The notes beneath the pieces are model-generated. The model saw only the letters and a program-made list of their open reading frames with translations. It did not search any database and was not told where the DNA came from. From Prolixibacteraceae bacterium (GTDB lineage Bacteria > Bacteroidota > Bacteroidia > Bacteroidales > Prolixibacteraceae): 64,000 nt of DNA. Shown in pieces: positions 42,229-50,277 of the stretch. Each line of letters starts with the position of its first letter. Within the stretch, counting starts at the first letter, position 1. The stretch is taken from contig JABGRN010000006.1 of assembly GCA_018648265.1 (NCBI GenBank), positions 44,845-108,844 of the forward strand, in the 5' to 3' direction. Made by a program: the position numbers and the translations under genes.

Positions 42229-42753
42229 ATGTTAACAGTAGGAGACAAATTTCCAAAATTTAAAAAACCGGCCATTTTAGCCGACAAATCAGTAGGCGAC
42301 ATAAGTTCAAAAGATCATAAAGATGAAGGTAAATGGATGGTGATGTTTTGGTACCCGAAAGATTTTACTTTTGTGTGCCCGACAGAAATTATAGAATTCA
42401 ATAGCAACCACACTAAATTTGCTGAATTAAATACAGTTTTATACGGAGCATCAACTGACACCGAGGCAGTGCATTTGGCATGGAGGGAAAATGACCCGAA
42501 ATTGACAAATCTAACCTTCCCTTTAATTGCTGACACATCAAAATCGTTAAGCAAAAAACTGGGTATTTTACAGCCCGAAAAAGTGGCTTACCGAGTTACA
42601 TTTATTGTTGATCCTGAAGGAGTAATTCAATGGGTGAATGCCAACAACGACGCAACGGGTAGAAATATTGCTGAAGTTTTACGAGCTCTGGAAGCAACAC
42701 AAAATCCGGGATTAACAGCGTGCGACTGGGTTCCCGGAGAAGCAACGCTTTAA
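42229..42753 (+). CDS. Peroxiredoxin (AhpC/Prx1-type, 2-Cys)
   Basis: 'DFTFVCPTEIIEFN' peroxidatic Cys; C-terminal 'LTACDWVPGE' resolving Cys. Confidence 0.93.
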   Translation: MLTVGDKFPKFKKPAILADKSVGDISSKDHKDEGKWMVMFWYPKDFTFVCPTEIIEFNSNHTKFAELNTVLYGASTDTEAVHLAWRENDPKLTNLTFPLIADTSKSLSKKLGILQPEKVAYRVTFIVDPEGVIQWVNANNDATGRNIAEVLRALEATQNPGLTACDWVPGEATL

Positions 42754-42979: not shown

Positions 42980-43405
42980 ATGACAGTAAGAAAAGTAAAA
43001 TCAGTTTGGAACGGAACCCTGAAAGAGGGAAAAGGAAATATGGATATTACGGGTTACAGTGGCCCTTTTACGTTTGCTTCGCGTTTCGAAAATGGTAAAG
43101 GAACAAATCCCGAAGAGTTAGTGGGAGCAGCACAATCAGGATGTTATTCAATGTTTTTATCGGCGTTAATTAGTGGCGAAGGTTTAAATCCGGCGAGCAT
43201 TGAAACAGAAGCTGCTGTAACACTTGGAGAAGTTGACGGAGGACCGGCAATTACGAATATTAAATTAAGTACAGTTGTTAAATGCGACGGACTCTCGCAG
43301 GAAAAATTTGATGAACTTTCGGTTGCTGCTAAAGAAAAATGCCCGATTTCGAGATTGTTTGCTGGTGGTACTGCAACTATTGAGCTGGATGCAAAATTAG
43401 TTTAA
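42980..43405 (+). CDS. OsmC/Ohr family peroxiredoxin
   Basis: 'NPEELVGAAQSGCYSMFLSALI' and 'AKEKCPISRLFAGG' Cys pair. Confidence 0.92.
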   Translation: MTVRKVKSVWNGTLKEGKGNMDITGYSGPFTFASRFENGKGTNPEELVGAAQSGCYSMFLSALISGEGLNPASIETEAAVTLGEVDGGPAITNIKLSTVVKCDGLSQEKFDELSVAAKEKCPISRLFAGGTATIELDAKLV

Positions 43406-43544
43406 TCGTCATGCTGAATTTATTTCAGCATCTCTAAAACAATCAGATTCCGAAATAAATTCGGAATGACGTTACAAAATAACCCAATATAGTTTTGTTT
43501 AGAATTAGTTAGAATCGAAAGATTAAAATAGAGAAATGGGAAAA

Positions 43545-43569
43545 GGGAGCTGCGAGGCTCCTTTTTTTC
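43545..43569 (+). terminator. Terminator-like hairpin gggagc-tgcgag-gctcc followed by T-run
   Basis: Inverted repeat plus ttttttt. Confidence 0.6.
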
Positions 43570-43670
43570 TGTTTCTTTAGAACTCTTTGCGGATTTTTGT
43601 CTTTGCGAACTTTGCGAGAAATTTTTCACGCAAAGACGCAAAATTGAAACACGCAAAGAACGCAGAGTAG

Positions 43671-43739
43671 TTAATCTTGCAAAACAAATTTTACGGTAAT
43701 TCCGATTATCTTTCCTTTGAATACAGGAATTAGGTAAGA
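43671..43739 (-). pseudogene. Remnant of M56-protein C-terminal tail, ...SYLIPVFKGKIIGITVKFVLQD*
   Basis: Matches the intact M56 C-terminus ...DITEFKGKTVGITVKFVLQ*. Confidence 0.65.
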
Positions 43740-43799
43740 GACAATAATTTTAGATCCCGTGTTATTTCTTCAGCAAAAAGTTATTAAATGGATTTTTTG

Positions 43800-44975
43800 T
43801 TATTTGGTTGAATTTTTTTGGATTGCATTATATTTATCCATCTGGTTAAGACGGTAATACAAGCTTTTAATTGATTCAACAGTGGCTGCATCTTCAGGAT
43901 TTAGTTCGTAACATTTTTCCATAAATGGCAGTGATTTTTCCCAATATTTATCAACTTCTTTTATTACTTTTTCATACGAGGCACTATCGTCGGATGGAAT
44001 ATTTTTCGCACTTTCAAATAATTGTACGCCTTCATTATAATAAATTACTCCAAGATTAAAATAGCCCATAAATAAATCAGTATCTAATTCAATTGCTTTT
44101 TCGTAAGATATTATTGCATTTTCATTGTCGTGATTTTTATCTAACAAATTTCCCATTGCCAAATAATATACCGCTTTATCGGGTTCGCGACTAATTGCAA
44201 GTTCTAAAAAATGCATTGCTTCTTCCTTTCGATCCATATTCAGATACAGCTGAATCATGTTGGACAAAAGTTCGTTATTTTCCGGGTATTTTTCAAATCC
44301 TTGTTTTAATGATTCCGATGCATTTATTGTGTCTTTTTTCTGTTCATAAGCCCTTGAAAGCCAAAGGTAAGTTGTTGCCCCATTGTAACCATGCCGGGCT
44401 GCCTCCCGGAAATACCTGACAGCCTTGTCTGAATCATCGGTTTTTAGAGCCATCATTCCGGCATTATAAATTATTGCCGTATCAATGCTCATCAGATTAT
44501 CGGTTTTAAACAACGGAAGATTGTTTATTTCCAGTATTTGTTCAAATGAAACAAGAGCTTTTGAGTAATTTTCTAAATTATATGCCTCAACAGCTTGATC
44601 CTGAAAATCGTTGTTTAGAAGTGTTAATTTGATTTTCACGCTTTTTGAGAATTTATTTTTTGTATCCAATTCCAAAGCTCTTTTGTAAGAATTTAGTGCT
44701 TCGGTTAGCGGATCGGTGCTTAATGCTTTGATCTTCTCATCTTTCGAATGAAAAACAGCCTGATAAATTTCTCCTCTCACTTCCCAGGTACGAGGCCAGT
44801 TGATACTTTTTGCTGATTTCTCATTGTTTTTATCAATCGTAGTTTGAATTGTTTTGAACGCCTGTTCCAATTTCCCTGCTTCTTTAAAGTTTAATGCACT
44901 TACGACTTTCCCTTTTTGTGCAAACGATGAGTTTAACATTAATAATGAAATCAGGACTAAAATTATTTTGTTCAT
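43800..44975 (-). CDS. Secreted TPR-repeat protein
   Basis: Signal peptide MNKIILVLISLLMLNSSFAQ; multiple TPRs ('AVYYLAMGNLLDKNHDNENAIISYEKAIELDTDLFMGYFNLGVIYYNEG'). Confidence 0.85.
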   Translation of the reverse strand: MNKIILVLISLLMLNSSFAQKGKVVSALNFKEAGKLEQAFKTIQTTIDKNNEKSAKSINWPRTWEVRGEIYQAVFHSKDEKIKALSTDPLTEALNSYKRALELDTKNKFSKSVKIKLTLLNNDFQDQAVEAYNLENYSKALVSFEQILEINNLPLFKTDNLMSIDTAIIYNAGMMALKTDDSDKAVRYFREAARHGYNGATTYLWLSRAYEQKKDTINASESLKQGFEKYPENNELLSNMIQLYLNMDRKEEAMHFLELAISREPDKAVYYLAMGNLLDKNHDNENAIISYEKAIELDTDLFMGYFNLGVIYYNEGVQLFESAKNIPSDDSASYEKVIKEVDKYWEKSLPFMEKCYELNPEDAATVESIKSLYYRLNQMDKYNAIQKNSTK

Positions 44976-45118
44976 AGTTCGGATTATTTAATTGTTTAAA
45001 TCGTAGAATATTTGATTGTCTTTCTTTAAGTTGCATTTGTTTACAGAAGAAAGATTAGATTACTCAGAATATTTTTGTTAAAACTTGAAATTATTGCAAA
45101 ACAAATTTTACAGTTATT
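44818..45118. repeat. ~300-bp near-identical direct repeat, copy A
   Basis: Same sequence as 45571-45872 with a handful of mismatches and one indel. Confidence 0.92.
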
Positions 45119-45150
45119 GCTATTGTTTTCCCTTTTATCGTCGATTTAAT
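45091..45150 (-). pseudogene. Remnant of M56-protein C-terminal tail, ...STIKGKTIAITVKFVLQ*
   Basis: Read on the - strand; matches ...TEFKGKTVGITVKFVLQ* of the intact gene. Confidence 0.65.
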
Positions 45151-45158
45151 CAAGAACC

Positions 45159-45728
45159 TTATTTAGACAGCATTAAATTTCCTGACCTCTTTTTTGTTGA
45201 ATCTTCATTAAATTCAATTATATAAGAATAAGTTCCTTTTTTAATATTATTCGTATTATCCTTCCCATTCCACCATTCAGGTTTAGAATTAGGATTTCCG
45301 TTATGTTTGTATTCCCATATTAAATCCCTATTACTATTGAATATTTTCATTTCAAAGTTAGGATATTGTTTTTCCAATCCTCTTACTTCAAAAACATCAT
45401 GCACTCCATCTCCATTTGGTGAAAATCCATTTGGAACAATAATATTCTTATTAGCCGAATTGCGCTTTGTAATTAGCTCATCCCCAACAATTGGTGAATC
45501 TGATTTATTAGAATTGTATTTGTTTTTTGTCTGAATTATTATTTTGTCTATTTCGGAAGTACTTTTTACTTTCTCATTGTTTTGATCAATCGTAGTTTGA
45601 ATTGTTTTGAACGCCTGTTCCAATTTCCCTGCTTCTTTAAAGTTTAATGCACTTACGACTTTCCCTTTTTGTGCAAACGATGAGTTTAACATTAATAATG
45701 AAATCAGGACTAAAATTATTTTGTTCAT
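45159..45728 (-). CDS. Mosaic small secreted protein: TPR-protein N-terminus, two M56-gene segments, gliding-motility-type C-terminal domain
   Basis: First ~48 aa match the 43800 gene product; 'KVKSTSE' and 'IDKIIIQTK' match the M56 gene; 'IIVPNGFSPNGDGVHDVFEVRGLEKQYPNFEMKIFN' is a gliding/T9SS type-B CTD pattern. Confidence 0.8.
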   Translation of the reverse strand: MNKIILVLISLLMLNSSFAQKGKVVSALNFKEAGKLEQAFKTIQTTIDQNNEKVKSTSEIDKIIIQTKNKYNSNKSDSPIVGDELITKRNSANKNIIVPNGFSPNGDGVHDVFEVRGLEKQYPNFEMKIFNSNRDLIWEYKHNGNPNSKPEWWNGKDNTNNIKKGTYSYIIEFNEDSTKKRSGNLMLSK

Positions 45729-45872
45729 AGTTCGGATTATTTAATTGTTTAAATCGTAGAATATTTGATTGTCTTTCTTGAAGTTGCATTTGTTTACAGA
45801 AGAAAGATTAGATTACTCAGAACGCTTTTGTTAAAAACTTGAAATTATTGCAATACAAATTTTACAGTTATT
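45571..45872. repeat. ~300-bp near-identical direct repeat, copy B
   Basis: See copy A; offset 753-754 bp; includes the 3' end of the M56 gene. Confidence 0.92.
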
Positions 45873-48800
45873 CCAACCGTTTTTCCTTTAAATTCCGTGA
45901 TATCGATAATCGGCATTTTATTGATGACCCGTCTTGTTTCGTCAACCATAAGTTGCTCTTCAATTTTTCTTGCATTTTCCGCTTCCGCTTTTGTTCCGTA
46001 ACCGTTAACAACAACTTCTTTTGTTTTGTTACCCGCAACAACTACTTCACCAACTCTTATTTTAATATACCCGTCCTTCTCGTTAATCGAAGTAATATTT
46101 CCCTTTTTATCAATTTGCACCGATAATTTTACGACTTTTTCGCGATTTGCTTCTTGTGCCAAAACAGGATACCTGATTTCCTTTGCAATAAATTTTCGAA
46201 ACTTTAACTCAGTATCTATTTTATCGTTTTCGGAAGTACTTTTTACTTTCACTTTGTCGGTGTAAAGTTTTCGGCTTGAAACTTCGTAAACACCGTATTT
46301 CCCTAATTCACCATATTTTTTTACAGCTTCTTTTGGTTCAACTTTATTAATGTCCTTTATCAAGTCGCGGTCGAGTGTGTGTAAATTAAACTCTGTAGAT
46401 TTTCCGTTAAGTATTACGGGTAAAGTAATTTGGGCTGCATGAACACCTTTTATTGAAATTTCAATTACTCCGTTTTTTCCTCTGTCGCCATATTTAGAAA
46501 TAGCGGATTCATCTTTTAAAACACTAACCGATTGTATCGTTTCCGGATCGATGTCATCCATCGATTTATAACCTGTAATAATTCCATCGGTTACAATTAA
46601 TGGTTTTTTATTTTCGGTGTTGTACTTGGTTTTTGTCTGAATTATTATTTTGTCTATTTCGGGTCCTTTACCATCATAAATATTTGTGTCGGTTTGATTT
46701 TTTTTCACTTCCATACTGATAATATCTGTAACCGGAATATCATTTATATTGCCATAAAATTCCTTTCCGTCAACGATTAATGCCGGATTTCCAGGTAAAT
46801 TCTTTGAAGTGAATTTCACCGAATTTTTTGTAGTTACCAGAATCACCCCATTTTTCCCTTTTTCGCCATATTTAGAAATAGCAGATTCCTTTTTTAAAAC
46901 ACTAATCGATTGTATCGTTTCCGGATCGATGTCATCCATCGATTTATAACCGGTAATAATTCCATCGGTTATAATTAAAGGTTTGTCATCGTCTAATGTT
47001 GATAGGGAAACCCCTTTTTCGCTAATAATATGCCTTTTATCAGCAGGTTTAAAACTTAAGTTTTTCCAGGCAGTTCCCGATTTCCCATTCAGTTTTATTT
47101 GATCGTTTACTTTTTCAATTTCGAATAAAAATCCTGAAAGGGTTTGGTCGATTTCTGAAGAACTTATTCCTTTTTTATCTATTACAACTGGATTATTATT
47201 TTTTATAGAAAATGTTAATTCCTTAAAAGCACATCCAGACAGCCCCCGAAGTTTTATTTTGTTTTGGTGAACTTCAATTGAAATCAAAAAACTTTCTAAT
47301 TCTACTGTCTTCTTATTTAGTGCTTTCTTTTTAGTAGTTATATAAATAACTCCATTCTTCCCCTTTTCGCCATAAAGTTCAGTGGCTGTTTTGTTTTTTA
47401 AAACATCTATACTGGCAATATCTTCAACCGTAACATCGTTTATGTTCCCATCAAATTCCTTCCCGTCAACAATGATAAGTTTATCGCTTGTGTTAAAATC
47501 TTTTTTGAATTTTGTTTCAATACAAATTACCCCGTTTTTGCCTTTCTCTCCGTACAAATCAGTTGCCGATTTATCCTTTAAAACATCAATACTTTCAATG
47601 TTTTCAGGAGGCAAATAGGTAATATCTTCCACTTCTTTTCCATCAACAATATAAAGTGGTGGATTTTTCATATTTGGACTTATCCGAACAACCTCCGAAT
47701 CAAATTCCATGTTTGAGGAAGGATAGCCAACCGCAATTTTTGTAGCGTTTTTATTGTTTTCATTTCTTTTCTCAAGAGATTCGATTTCTAATCCAAGCTT
47801 ACTATATTTCCTAATCTGTTTTACTGTTGGGACAAAATTTATGGGAACGGTATAAGATACGTTTACAATTTTGCCATTTTGTTTGCCGGGCTTCCATTTA
47901 GGGAGTGTATTTACAACACGCAATGCTTCTTTGTTAAGTGACGGATCAACACCCCTTGAAATTTTCGGATCATTAACCTTTCCATTTTTATCAATAATAA
48001 ATGTTACATATACTTTTCCATGTATTCCCTTCTCCAATGCAATCTCCGGATATTTGATACTGTAATCAATGTATTTCTTCAAAGCTTTTTCGCCTCCTGG
48101 AAATTGTGGCATTTCTTCTACTTTATAAAAAACTTCATCACCCTGGCTTTTTTTGCCGGTTTGTTTCGATTTGTAAGTTGAAATTAGGATATCGTGCGAT
48201 TTTGCTTTTTCATTGGGAACTAACTCAACATCAATTTCTGATTGACCGGCAACAAGAATTTCTTCCATTTTATAATCAATCATCCAAAAAATTAAAGTCT
48301 CATTCTTTTCTTCTAATTTGATTTCGTAATTACCCATACGATCTGTAATTGTCCCGATGGTTTTACCTTTAATAAGAATTGATGCTCCTGAAATTGGGTC
48401 GCTATTTTGGTCGGTTACTTTTCCTTTGACAACATGTTTGTATTTTGTGTTGATTGTAACACTTTTTGTACCTACTGAAACACTTTTATCTGAATTCAAC
48501 TTTATATTAATTTCATTTTTATTATCTACTGGAATTTCCAATTTTTCGAAACCAACCATTATAAAAACCAGCGTTTCATTTTCATTATCGAGCCGGAGTT
48601 CGTAATTCCCATTTGCATCGGTAATTGTTCCAATTGTTTTACCTTTTACGATAATTGATGCCCCTGAAATTGGGTCGTCTTTTGGATCGGTTACCTTTCC
48701 CTTTACTATTATTTTCTCCTTATTTTCAATGCGTTTCATTAAAAGTTTATATTCCTCTGAATCGATTTCTGTATTAAAAGTCAGCACACCATTTTTACCT

Positions 48801-49918
48801 CTTTCGCCGTACAATTCAACGGCTTGGTTCGGTTTAATCGATTTGCCAAACTTTAAATCAGTTTCATTAAAAACAATTTTTTCGATTACTTCTTCCCCAT
48901 TAAAAAATAATAGAGGCGCATCTTCTCCATAATCTTGTAAAGTGAAAATCCCATCGTGATAAATCTTTGATAAAAATTCTTTATCCGTCATTTTTAAAAA
49001 ATCATTGTCAAATTGACTCAATTCAATTTTGTTTTCAGGCTGAATAATTTCAGTCCTCACTTCCCTGCTCGACAACCCCATCACTAAAATAGCGAGGAGC
49101 GGAAGAACCACCAATTGTTTTAAAACGGCGTACTTGCTTTCTGTTTTCTTTTTCATCATAATAATGCGGTTTTTAAGTTGAGAACCATTCAAAGCAGTCA
49201 GAAAAGGTGCAACCCCTTTTTTGTCGGCTAATCCAACCATGGCCAGTTGGTAAGCTTGCGGGTTGTGGTTTTCCGCAATTTGATGATCGGTTTTATATTC
49301 TAAATTGTTTTTTATGGCATCTTTTATTAACCAGGCAAAAGGATTAAACCACTGAGCAAGAAATAGCAGTTCAGCAAAAAGAATGTCTAGCGTGTGTTTT
49401 TCTTTTACATGAATGTTTTCGTGGCTGACAATTATTTCGAGGTTGGGGTGGGAAAGTGTTTTCTCGGAAAGAACTATTTTGTTGAAAAATGAAAAGGGAT
49501 GAATATCTTTATTTGTAACGTTAACTTTTACCTGAAAAAGGTTTTTAATCCAACTTCGTTTTACAATTGAAATGGCTTTTAAATGCCCGAGTAAAAGATG
49601 GAATAAAAAACCACACGAACCTAATATGTACAATCCAAATAAATAATGATACCATTGAAAAACAAATCCGATGGGTTGTACAATTTCTGTGGAGTTTGCT
49701 ATGTATGCGAAACTATTAGAATTAAAAGAAACGGGTTCAACAATTTTTACGGTTGTAAATGTAATTAACGGAATTAAAAAACTCAGTGCCAGCGAAACCG
49801 GCAAATAAAACCGGTTAAACATAAAGTGTTTTTGGTTCTGAAAAAGAACAAGATAAGCAAGATAGAATGCTCCGGTTGCAAGCGCCGATTTCCCGATGTA
49901 AAACAAATAGTTTTCCAT
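45845..49918 (-). CDS. BlaR1-like M56 metallopeptidase with carboxypeptidase-D-like repeats, TonB C-terminal-like segments and six TonB-receptor-plug-like motifs
   Basis: Zinc motif HENIH in 'LEIIVSHENIHVKEKHTLD'; 'VKGKVTDPKDDPISGASIIVKGKTIGTITDANGNYEL' (x2); 'EEMPQFPGGEKALKKYIDYSIKYPEIALEKGIHGKVYVTFIIDKNG'; six 'YGEKGKNGVI'-type motifs. Confidence 0.9.
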   Translation of the reverse strand: MENYLFYIGKSALATGAFYLAYLVLFQNQKHFMFNRFYLPVSLALSFLIPLITFTTVKIVEPVSFNSNSFAYIANSTEIVQPIGFVFQWYHYLFGLYILGSCGFLFHLLLGHLKAISIVKRSWIKNLFQVKVNVTNKDIHPFSFFNKIVLSEKTLSHPNLEIIVSHENIHVKEKHTLDILFAELLFLAQWFNPFAWLIKDAIKNNLEYKTDHQIAENHNPQAYQLAMVGLADKKGVAPFLTALNGSQLKNRIIMMKKKTESKYAVLKQLVVLPLLAILVMGLSSREVRTEIIQPENKIELSQFDNDFLKMTDKEFLSKIYHDGIFTLQDYGEDAPLLFFNGEEVIEKIVFNETDLKFGKSIKPNQAVELYGERGKNGVLTFNTEIDSEEYKLLMKRIENKEKIIVKGKVTDPKDDPISGASIIVKGKTIGTITDANGNYELRLDNENETLVFIMVGFEKLEIPVDNKNEINIKLNSDKSVSVGTKSVTINTKYKHVVKGKVTDQNSDPISGASILIKGKTIGTITDRMGNYEIKLEEKNETLIFWMIDYKMEEILVAGQSEIDVELVPNEKAKSHDILISTYKSKQTGKKSQGDEVFYKVEEMPQFPGGEKALKKYIDYSIKYPEIALEKGIHGKVYVTFIIDKNGKVNDPKISRGVDPSLNKEALRVVNTLPKWKPGKQNGKIVNVSYTVPINFVPTVKQIRKYSKLGLEIESLEKRNENNKNATKIAVGYPSSNMEFDSEVVRISPNMKNPPLYIVDGKEVEDITYLPPENIESIDVLKDKSATDLYGEKGKNGVICIETKFKKDFNTSDKLIIVDGKEFDGNINDVTVEDIASIDVLKNKTATELYGEKGKNGVIYITTKKKALNKKTVELESFLISIEVHQNKIKLRGLSGCAFKELTFSIKNNNPVVIDKKGISSSEIDQTLSGFLFEIEKVNDQIKLNGKSGTAWKNLSFKPADKRHIISEKGVSLSTLDDDKPLIITDGIITGYKSMDDIDPETIQSISVLKKESAISKYGEKGKNGVILVTTKNSVKFTSKNLPGNPALIVDGKEFYGNINDIPVTDIISMEVKKNQTDTNIYDGKGPEIDKIIIQTKTKYNTENKKPLIVTDGIITGYKSMDDIDPETIQSVSVLKDESAISKYGDRGKNGVIEISIKGVHAAQITLPVILNGKSTEFNLHTLDRDLIKDINKVEPKEAVKKYGELGKYGVYEVSSRKLYTDKVKVKSTSENDKIDTELKFRKFIAKEIRYPVLAQEANREKVVKLSVQIDKKGNITSINEKDGYIKIRVGEVVVAGNKTKEVVVNGYGTKAEAENARKIEEQLMVDETRRVINKMPIIDITEFKGKTVGITVKFVLQ
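46485..46604. repeat. Intragenic direct repeat (copy 2 at 46863-46982), offset exactly 378 bp = 126 codons
   Basis: 'tcgccatatttagaaatagc.gattc...acactaa.cgattgtatcgtttccggatcgatgtcatccatcgatttataacc.gtaataattccatcggtta'. Confidence 0.9.
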
Positions 49919-50277
49919 TAGTTTTCTTCTTTAATCATTTTAACCAATTCATCCAGTTCTTCATTTGTAAGCCCTTTTTCTTTTACAAAAAATGCCACTG
50001 CACTTTTGTACGAATTGTCGAAATAATCGCTTACCACTTGTTTCATAAATGTTTGCCGGTATTCTTCTTTCGAAATTATTGCAAAGTATTGGTAGGTATT
50101 TCCGTACTGTTTAAACCCAATAATTCCTTTGTCTTGCAACAACCTAACCAACGACGAAATAGTATTGTAATGTGGTTTTGGTTCGGGATATTTTTCAATG
50201 ATATCTTTTACAAAAGCTTTCTCAAGTTTCCAAAGGATTTTCATAAGTTCCTCTTCCTTTCGTGTTAATTTTTTCAT
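49918..50277 (-). CDS. blaI: BlaI/MecI/CopY-family transcriptional repressor
   Basis: 'LTRKEEELMKILWKLEKAFVKDIIEKYPEPKPHYNTISSLVRLLQDKGIIGFKQYGNTYQYFAIISKEEYRQTFMKQVV'; stop overlaps the M56 start (TAATG). Confidence 0.92.
   Translation of the reverse strand: MKKLTRKEEELMKILWKLEKAFVKDIIEKYPEPKPHYNTISSLVRLLQDKGIIGFKQYGNTYQYFAIISKEEYRQTFMKQVVSDYFDNSYKSAVAFFVKEKGLTNEELDELVKMIKEEN

Follow-up and report, generated by a model that had tools for sequence, protein, structure and literature searches.

Gene content of the locus

The window, i.e. the whole stretch of DNA analysed here (64,000 nucleotides), comprises bases 44845-108844 of a 108,844-bp contig (C89, ~109 kb) from a Prolixibacteraceae draft genome of 5.58 Mb and 164 contigs. 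Four genes follow each other on its minus strand, in the order blaI, M56/BlaR1-like gene, mosaic ORF and TPR gene. The first encodes a BlaI-type repressor (49918-50277, 119 amino acids; PF03965, E 3.5e-30) and the second a large M56/BlaR1-like protein (45845-49918, 1357 amino acids) with TonB_C and carboxypeptidase-regulatory-like domains and several SusC/RagA plug-like signature repeats. The mosaic ORF (45159-45728, 189 amino acids) has a signal-peptide-like start, an N-terminus derived from the TPR gene, a linker derived from the M56 gene and a CHU_C domain (Pfam/NCBIfam). The TPR gene (43800-44975, 391 amino acids) belongs to an M56-linked subfamily. On the plus strand lie an osmC-like gene (42980-43405) and a peroxiredoxin-like gene (42229-42753), both named by their look and not by family search. 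The C-terminal half of the M56 protein differs strongly among species; in genome G027, the 3' end of the gene is a separate ORF.

The TPR-derived repeat

The start of the mosaic ORF had been described as a near-identical copy of the 5' end of the TPR gene, reaching over the first ~48 codons and the upstream region, and this description is right in its coordinates: 195 bp are fully identical (45585-45779 = 44832-45026, minus strand), 52 nucleotides upstream and 143 coding nucleotides that correspond to TPR codons 1-48. The encoded N-terminus, MNKIILVLISLLMLNSSFAQ, looks by eye like a typical signal peptide and is the same in the TPR gene. The identical core is part of a longer repeat on the minus strand. 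Copy 1 (45560-45889) consists of the M56 3' end, the intergenic region and the TPR-like 5' end, and copy 2 (44804-45135) of a relic of an M56 end (relic A, see below), the intergenic region and the 5' end of the true TPR gene; the two are 95% identical over 333 columns. Identity is 98% over the core block (45570-45836 versus 44817-45083), while outside the identical core the M56-end portion of the repeat is only 83-87% alike.

The two 195-bp direct repeats are 753 bp apart, and recombination between them would either remove the mosaic, so that M56 and TPR remain as an intact pair, or multiply the unit. As an exact repeat of 195 bp exceeds many short reads, the copy number of the 753-bp unit is insecure in a draft of 164 contigs. 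The same repeat, in the same kind of draft, could suggest that the mosaic is an assembly artefact caused by misjoining of the two copies, but we regard this as highly unlikely: sites that flank the repeat are not the same in both copies, CTD and relic sequence that occurs only once connects them within a 109-kb contig, and a misassembly would more readily yield a wrong number of 753-bp units than the unit itself.

Pieces and relics of the M56 gene

Downstream of the TPR-derived part, the mosaic contains two exact matches to the M56 gene, of 23 bp (45551-45573 = 46228-46250) and of 33 bp (45524-45556 = 46630-46662), that overlap by TTTCGG; the matches, the overlap and all coordinates are as first reported. 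A word of 33 bp is the longest that the mosaic and the M56 gene share, and the maximum reached in 300 Markov shuffles was 15 bp. The homology extends further: the entire linker (45468-45556, minus strand) is homologous to 46574-46662, with 56 diverged base pairs following the exact 33 bp. Of 4,018 offsets compared in the M56 gene, this one scores highest, with 33 matches among these 56 bases (59%; mean 16, standard deviation 3.3). The mosaic has the two pieces in reversed order relative to the M56 protein, where the 33-bp piece falls near residue 1089, ahead of the 23-bp piece near residue 1230. The corresponding M56 sites of relatives read EKDKIIIQTRTKYNS in G001 and SSRKLYTDQVTVKSSEQLQDEKIDSDLKLRKF in G018; both pieces are thus native to M56 proteins and passed from the M56 gene into the mosaic.

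Two copies of the M56 3' end are also present on the minus strand: relic A (45084-45135) directly after the stop codon of the mosaic, with 39 of 45 nucleotides identical to the intact M56 end, and relic B (43677-43782) directly after the stop codon of the TPR gene, about 107 nucleotides long and ~70% identical. The relics, like the longer linker homology, had escaped the earlier note.

One recent microhomology (template-switching) event that joined the TPR 5' end, two scraps of the M56 gene and the CTD would agree with the exact 23- and 33-bp matches that overlap by TTTCGG in an order reversed relative to the M56 gene, and also with the identical core of 195 bp. Nevertheless, we consider it unlikely: the M56 homology runs 56 bp past the exact 33 bp at 59% identity, the M56-end parts of the repeat are just 83-87% alike, and two relics imply more than one event. 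A single recent event would leave all segments equally alike; as the segments differ, the mosaic was probably not made in one stitch. Judged by the sequences, the unequal divergence (identical core, 83-87% in the M56 ends, 59% in the outer linker) fits older duplications topped by a more recent tract of gene conversion or template switching. Of the microhomology- or duplication-mediated origin suggested at first, what stands is the chimera of both neighbouring genes and a foreign CTD, for which duplication is a fitting cause; the single microhomology stitch is not supported, because the divergences of the segments differ.

Relatives without the insert

A search of related genomes for the un-rearranged locus, proposed in the earlier note, was successful. 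In G001, osmC-like and peroxiredoxin-like genes come after the M56 gene at a distance of no more than about 160 bp, and in G031 and G011 the M56 gene adjoins a relative of the peroxiredoxin-like gene. At none of these three syntenic M56 loci was a mosaic or a TPR gene found; the two genes are therefore probably an insert of the lineage studied here. A terminator-like hairpin region in the window (43540-43578) shares 37 of 40 nucleotides with G001, where it directly follows the M56 gene. In the window it sits beyond relic B, with relic B between it and the stop codon of the TPR gene, and this retained position suggests that relic B is probably the original end of the M56 gene. Short repeated phrases of the type ACGCAAAGACGCAAAA are found at 43560-43690, beside relic B, and a similar kind of element follows the M56 gene in G001.

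In a phylogenetic tree, the TPR gene of the window groups (98/96) with TPR genes that directly follow blaI-M56 in G020 and G032, indicating that blaI-M56-TPR triads recur in the genus. The triads of these two genomes are at a paralogous locus (L156:2364-6577 in G020, L159:5188-9392 in G032). A recent duplication of the TPR gene that occurs throughout the genus was also considered as the source of the window's copy, and rejected: the copy on contig C15 of the same genome is only 54% identical and falls on the opposite side of a supported split.

The mosaic itself was seen in one genome only. Both parts of the chimera in one ORF were not found in any other genome searched, including 141 genomes of the family, 398 of the phylum and 400 Flavobacteriaceae-like genomes (f47). 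The same architecture in distant genera, which would have pointed to an old domain arrangement, was not found; a plainer layout of signal peptide and CTD does occur elsewhere.

The C-terminal domain has lost a conserved motif

The C-terminal half of the mosaic (residues 96-189, coding region 45162-45443, minus strand) was originally read as a type-B CTD, and family searches agree: PF13585 (CHU_C) is matched with an E-value of 1.2e-19 and 70.6 bits (curated cut-off 27 bits), and TIGR04131 with 45.0 bits (curated cut-off 35 bits). The NRxG motif, however, reads NSNR in the mosaic: R132, arginine in 81 of 88 other domains, is replaced by serine, and G134, glycine in 87 of 88, by arginine. In addition, P163 (proline in 81 of 88 other domains) is a lysine. 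The arginine of NRxG is also missing from 7 of the 88 canonical CTDs. The earlier note had overlooked the loss of NRxG.

Most CTD positions that are conserved in more than 70% of relatives are retained in the mosaic at ~45% identity to its nearest kin, which argues that selection maintained the CTD fold for the greater part of its evolution. The predicted structure is confident for residues 91-189 (pLDDT mostly >90), has four main strands and resembles a T9SS substrate chain (8glk_D; TM 0.74 on target, E 0.009). Among solved structures, a sequence search matched only the end of GhpA and Ig-like domains of streptococcal proteases, all of them weakly.

In SprB, secretion via the CTD is stopped by mutation of any of five conserved motifs, according to passages of PMC12618676. 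NRxG may be one of these five motifs, and a CTD without the conserved NRxG may no longer act as secretion signal.

Whether the mosaic ORF is still of use could also be doubted altogether. As a non-functional, decaying by-product of recombination in a repeat-rich locus, it would be expected to look much as it does in several respects: it is found in a single genome, has relics on its flanks, has lost a conserved motif, sits on a long terminal branch (0.8) and is low in GC (29%). Yet the reading frame is intact, most conserved CTD positions are kept and the predicted fold is confident, and we hold decay to be possible at a probability clearly short of even odds.

Origin of the C-terminal domain

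No word longer than 12 bp is common to the CTD-coding DNA and the remainder of the window, a further point absent from the first description, and an origin from another gene of the same genome was dismissed, as the best copy there is 42% identical. The search for a parental CTD gene was therefore negative for the window and for the own genome, and found its nearest relatives among T9SS cargo proteins of Flavobacteriaceae (44-52% identity). Among the 141 genomes of the own family, the best matches were CHU_C domains inside M56 proteins (E 1.1e-21); matches in the 398 phylum genomes and the 400 Flavobacteriaceae-like genomes were better (E 1.7e-26). A tree of 90 domains puts the mosaic CTD inside a Flavobacteriaceae clade with 93/83 support, a placement that is favoured by the choice of the Flavobacteriaceae sequences, which were selected for likeness to the query. 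An AU test rejected a grouping of the mosaic CTD with the M56-internal domains (p 0.029) and kept a grouping with the whole own family (p 0.185). An M56 protein with internal CHU_C had been the best early match and thus a candidate donor; it was dropped after the wider searches and the AU test. The CTD was likely gained by transfer from a Flavobacteriaceae-like source.

CHU_C domains inside M56/BlaR1 proteins

Of the 141 family genomes, four (G001, G002, G007 and G010) have a CHU_C domain inside an M56 protein, with both domains above the Pfam cut-offs. The genes are in Draconibacterium-group genomes (L080:7880-10831, L085:8174-10855, L086:8174-11110 and L165:7690-10221), and the copy of G001 has a stop codon shortly after the CHU_C domain. 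The four domains form one clade (100/99) that is nested among CTDs belonging to large secreted proteins from the same genus, and the NRxG arginine is absent from all of them. Going by the established topology of BlaR1, the region beyond the final membrane helix would face the periplasm.

With four congeners that carry CHU_C in M56/BlaR1 and a separate CTD in the mosaic, CHU_C probably reached M56 loci twice. As CHU_C and M56 sequences both abound in the phylum, this double association may have arisen by chance. At M56 loci, CHU_C could serve as a sensing or ligand module. The further-reaching view is that CHU_C was recruited at least twice independently to blaI-M56 loci of Prolixibacteraceae, as part of the M56 protein itself in four genomes and in the form of an independent exported protein in the mosaic, to act as periplasmic sensing or ligand module of M56 signalling rather than as secretion signal, and that the loss of the NRxG arginine marks the change in role; we consider this quite unlikely. 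A literature search on BlaR1 and M56 in Bacteroidota found no paper in the library searched.

Secretion machinery and the fate of the product

The genome encodes a T9SS: SprA was identified with 2726 bits, seven PorP/SprF proteins are above cut-off, and TIGR04131 has eight places, five of them above cut-off. None of the eight PorP-like places of the genome is on C89, and the 109-kb contig thus has no gene for a PorP/SprF shuttle. Passages of PMC12618676 state that a type-B substrate as a rule depends on a cognate PorP/SprF shuttle, which is often encoded next to it, and that orphan substrates with distant shuttles exist; anchoring by PorP-like proteins is the subject of PMC9143113.

The mosaic product could still be a working T9SS type-B cargo that is shuttled to the surface by one of the PorP/SprF proteins of the genome, as for the SP-CTD protein of G095 or for PG1035 of P. 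gingivalis. The CTD scores above curated cut-offs, SprA and seven PorP/SprF are available, G095 has a canonical SP-CTD gene that overlaps porP beside an OmpA/PorE-like gene, and orphan type-B substrates are known from the passages of PMC12618676. We find this doubtful all the same, since NRxG is lost and P163 is changed to K, since the contig lacks a shuttle gene, and since each of the five SprB CTD motifs is required according to PMC12618676, whose available passages do not list the residues of the motifs. The earlier view of the product, a signal peptide on an almost free-standing T9SS sorting domain, is accurate in that a signal-peptide-like start is placed on a nearly bare CTD, that fold and HMM matches are right and that a T9SS is present; as a sorting domain, it is called into question by the lost NRxG and by the absence of PorP/SprF from the contig.

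A model for the origin of the mosaic

The reading that we prefer, with a probability of roughly 0.6, is that the mosaic is a lineage-specific chimera which was built stepwise at the 3' end of the blaI-M56 locus, and that its product is an exported, folded, stand-alone CHU_C domain and a poor rather than an efficient T9SS cargo. In a first step, an M56-linked TPR gene would have been gained between M56 and osmC, leaving behind a spare M56 3' end (relic B). In a second step, a copy of the M56 3' end, the intergenic region and the TPR 5' end may have been placed before the M56-derived linker and a Flavobacteriaceae-like type-B CTD, resulting in an open frame. Finally, gene conversion or template switching would have acted recently on the two copies and rendered 195 bp identical. 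The product is predicted to be exported via Sec and to fold as a stand-alone CHU_C domain; with NRxG lost and no shuttle nearby, retention in the periplasm or at the outer membrane, or poor secretion, would be likelier than efficient transport by the T9SS. Most likely, the mosaic yields a folded CHU_C protein which is exported and makes a poor T9SS cargo if any; decay of the ORF and a working cargo are serious alternatives of about equal weight.

The chimera is genuine and of an ordinary type, a matter of local duplication, conversion and domain capture. It offers a readable case in which neighbouring genes and a secretion-signal domain together gave rise to a new, predicted exported protein, and for which insert-free relatives are available. 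CHU_C within BlaR1-type M56 proteins suggests that a domain annotated everywhere as T9SS sorting signal may have other uses, and cautions that a CHU_C match alone does not make a protein secreted.

Comparison with known systems

With the four M56 proteins that have an internal CHU_C, the mosaic shares the presence of this domain at a blaI-M56 locus and the loss of the conserved arginine. Their domain, in contrast, sits inside a membrane protein and derives from a Draconibacterium-type CTD, and the mosaic CTD falls outside their clade.

In P. gingivalis, the small CTD protein PorA gives input to a sensor pathway (PorXY-SigP signalling; PMC7712824). The mosaic is likewise a small CTD protein with a possible link to an envelope sensor, but a signalling role like that of PorA would be no more than an analogy; PorA differs in having a type A CTD and a histidine-kinase pathway.

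T9SS type-B cargo proteins such as SprB and PG1035 resemble the mosaic in several ways: its CTD is above curated cut-offs and has the predicted CTD fold, the start looks like a Sec signal and T9SS genes are present. Unlike these cargo proteins, the mosaic has almost no passenger, has lost NRxG and has no PorP/SprF on its contig.

Closest in layout is the SP-CTD gene of G095 (L182:3711-4043), which encodes a signal peptide and a type-B CTD only, overlaps porP/sprF and adjoins an OmpA/PorE-like gene (region L182:762-4076). Short CHU_C ORFs at five further loci (L180, L181, L185, L186 and L187) were discarded as parallels because they are cut by contig ends, and L182 is the only true bare SP-CTD gene among them. 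Since a canonical free-standing SP-CTD protein exists in G095, the layout itself is not new: in both proteins, a signal peptide, putative in the mosaic, stands directly or nearly directly on a type-B CTD. The G095 protein has its cognate porP and OmpA/PorE-like gene and keeps the motif as NRNG, whereas the mosaic is without these and carries segments derived from the TPR and M56 genes.
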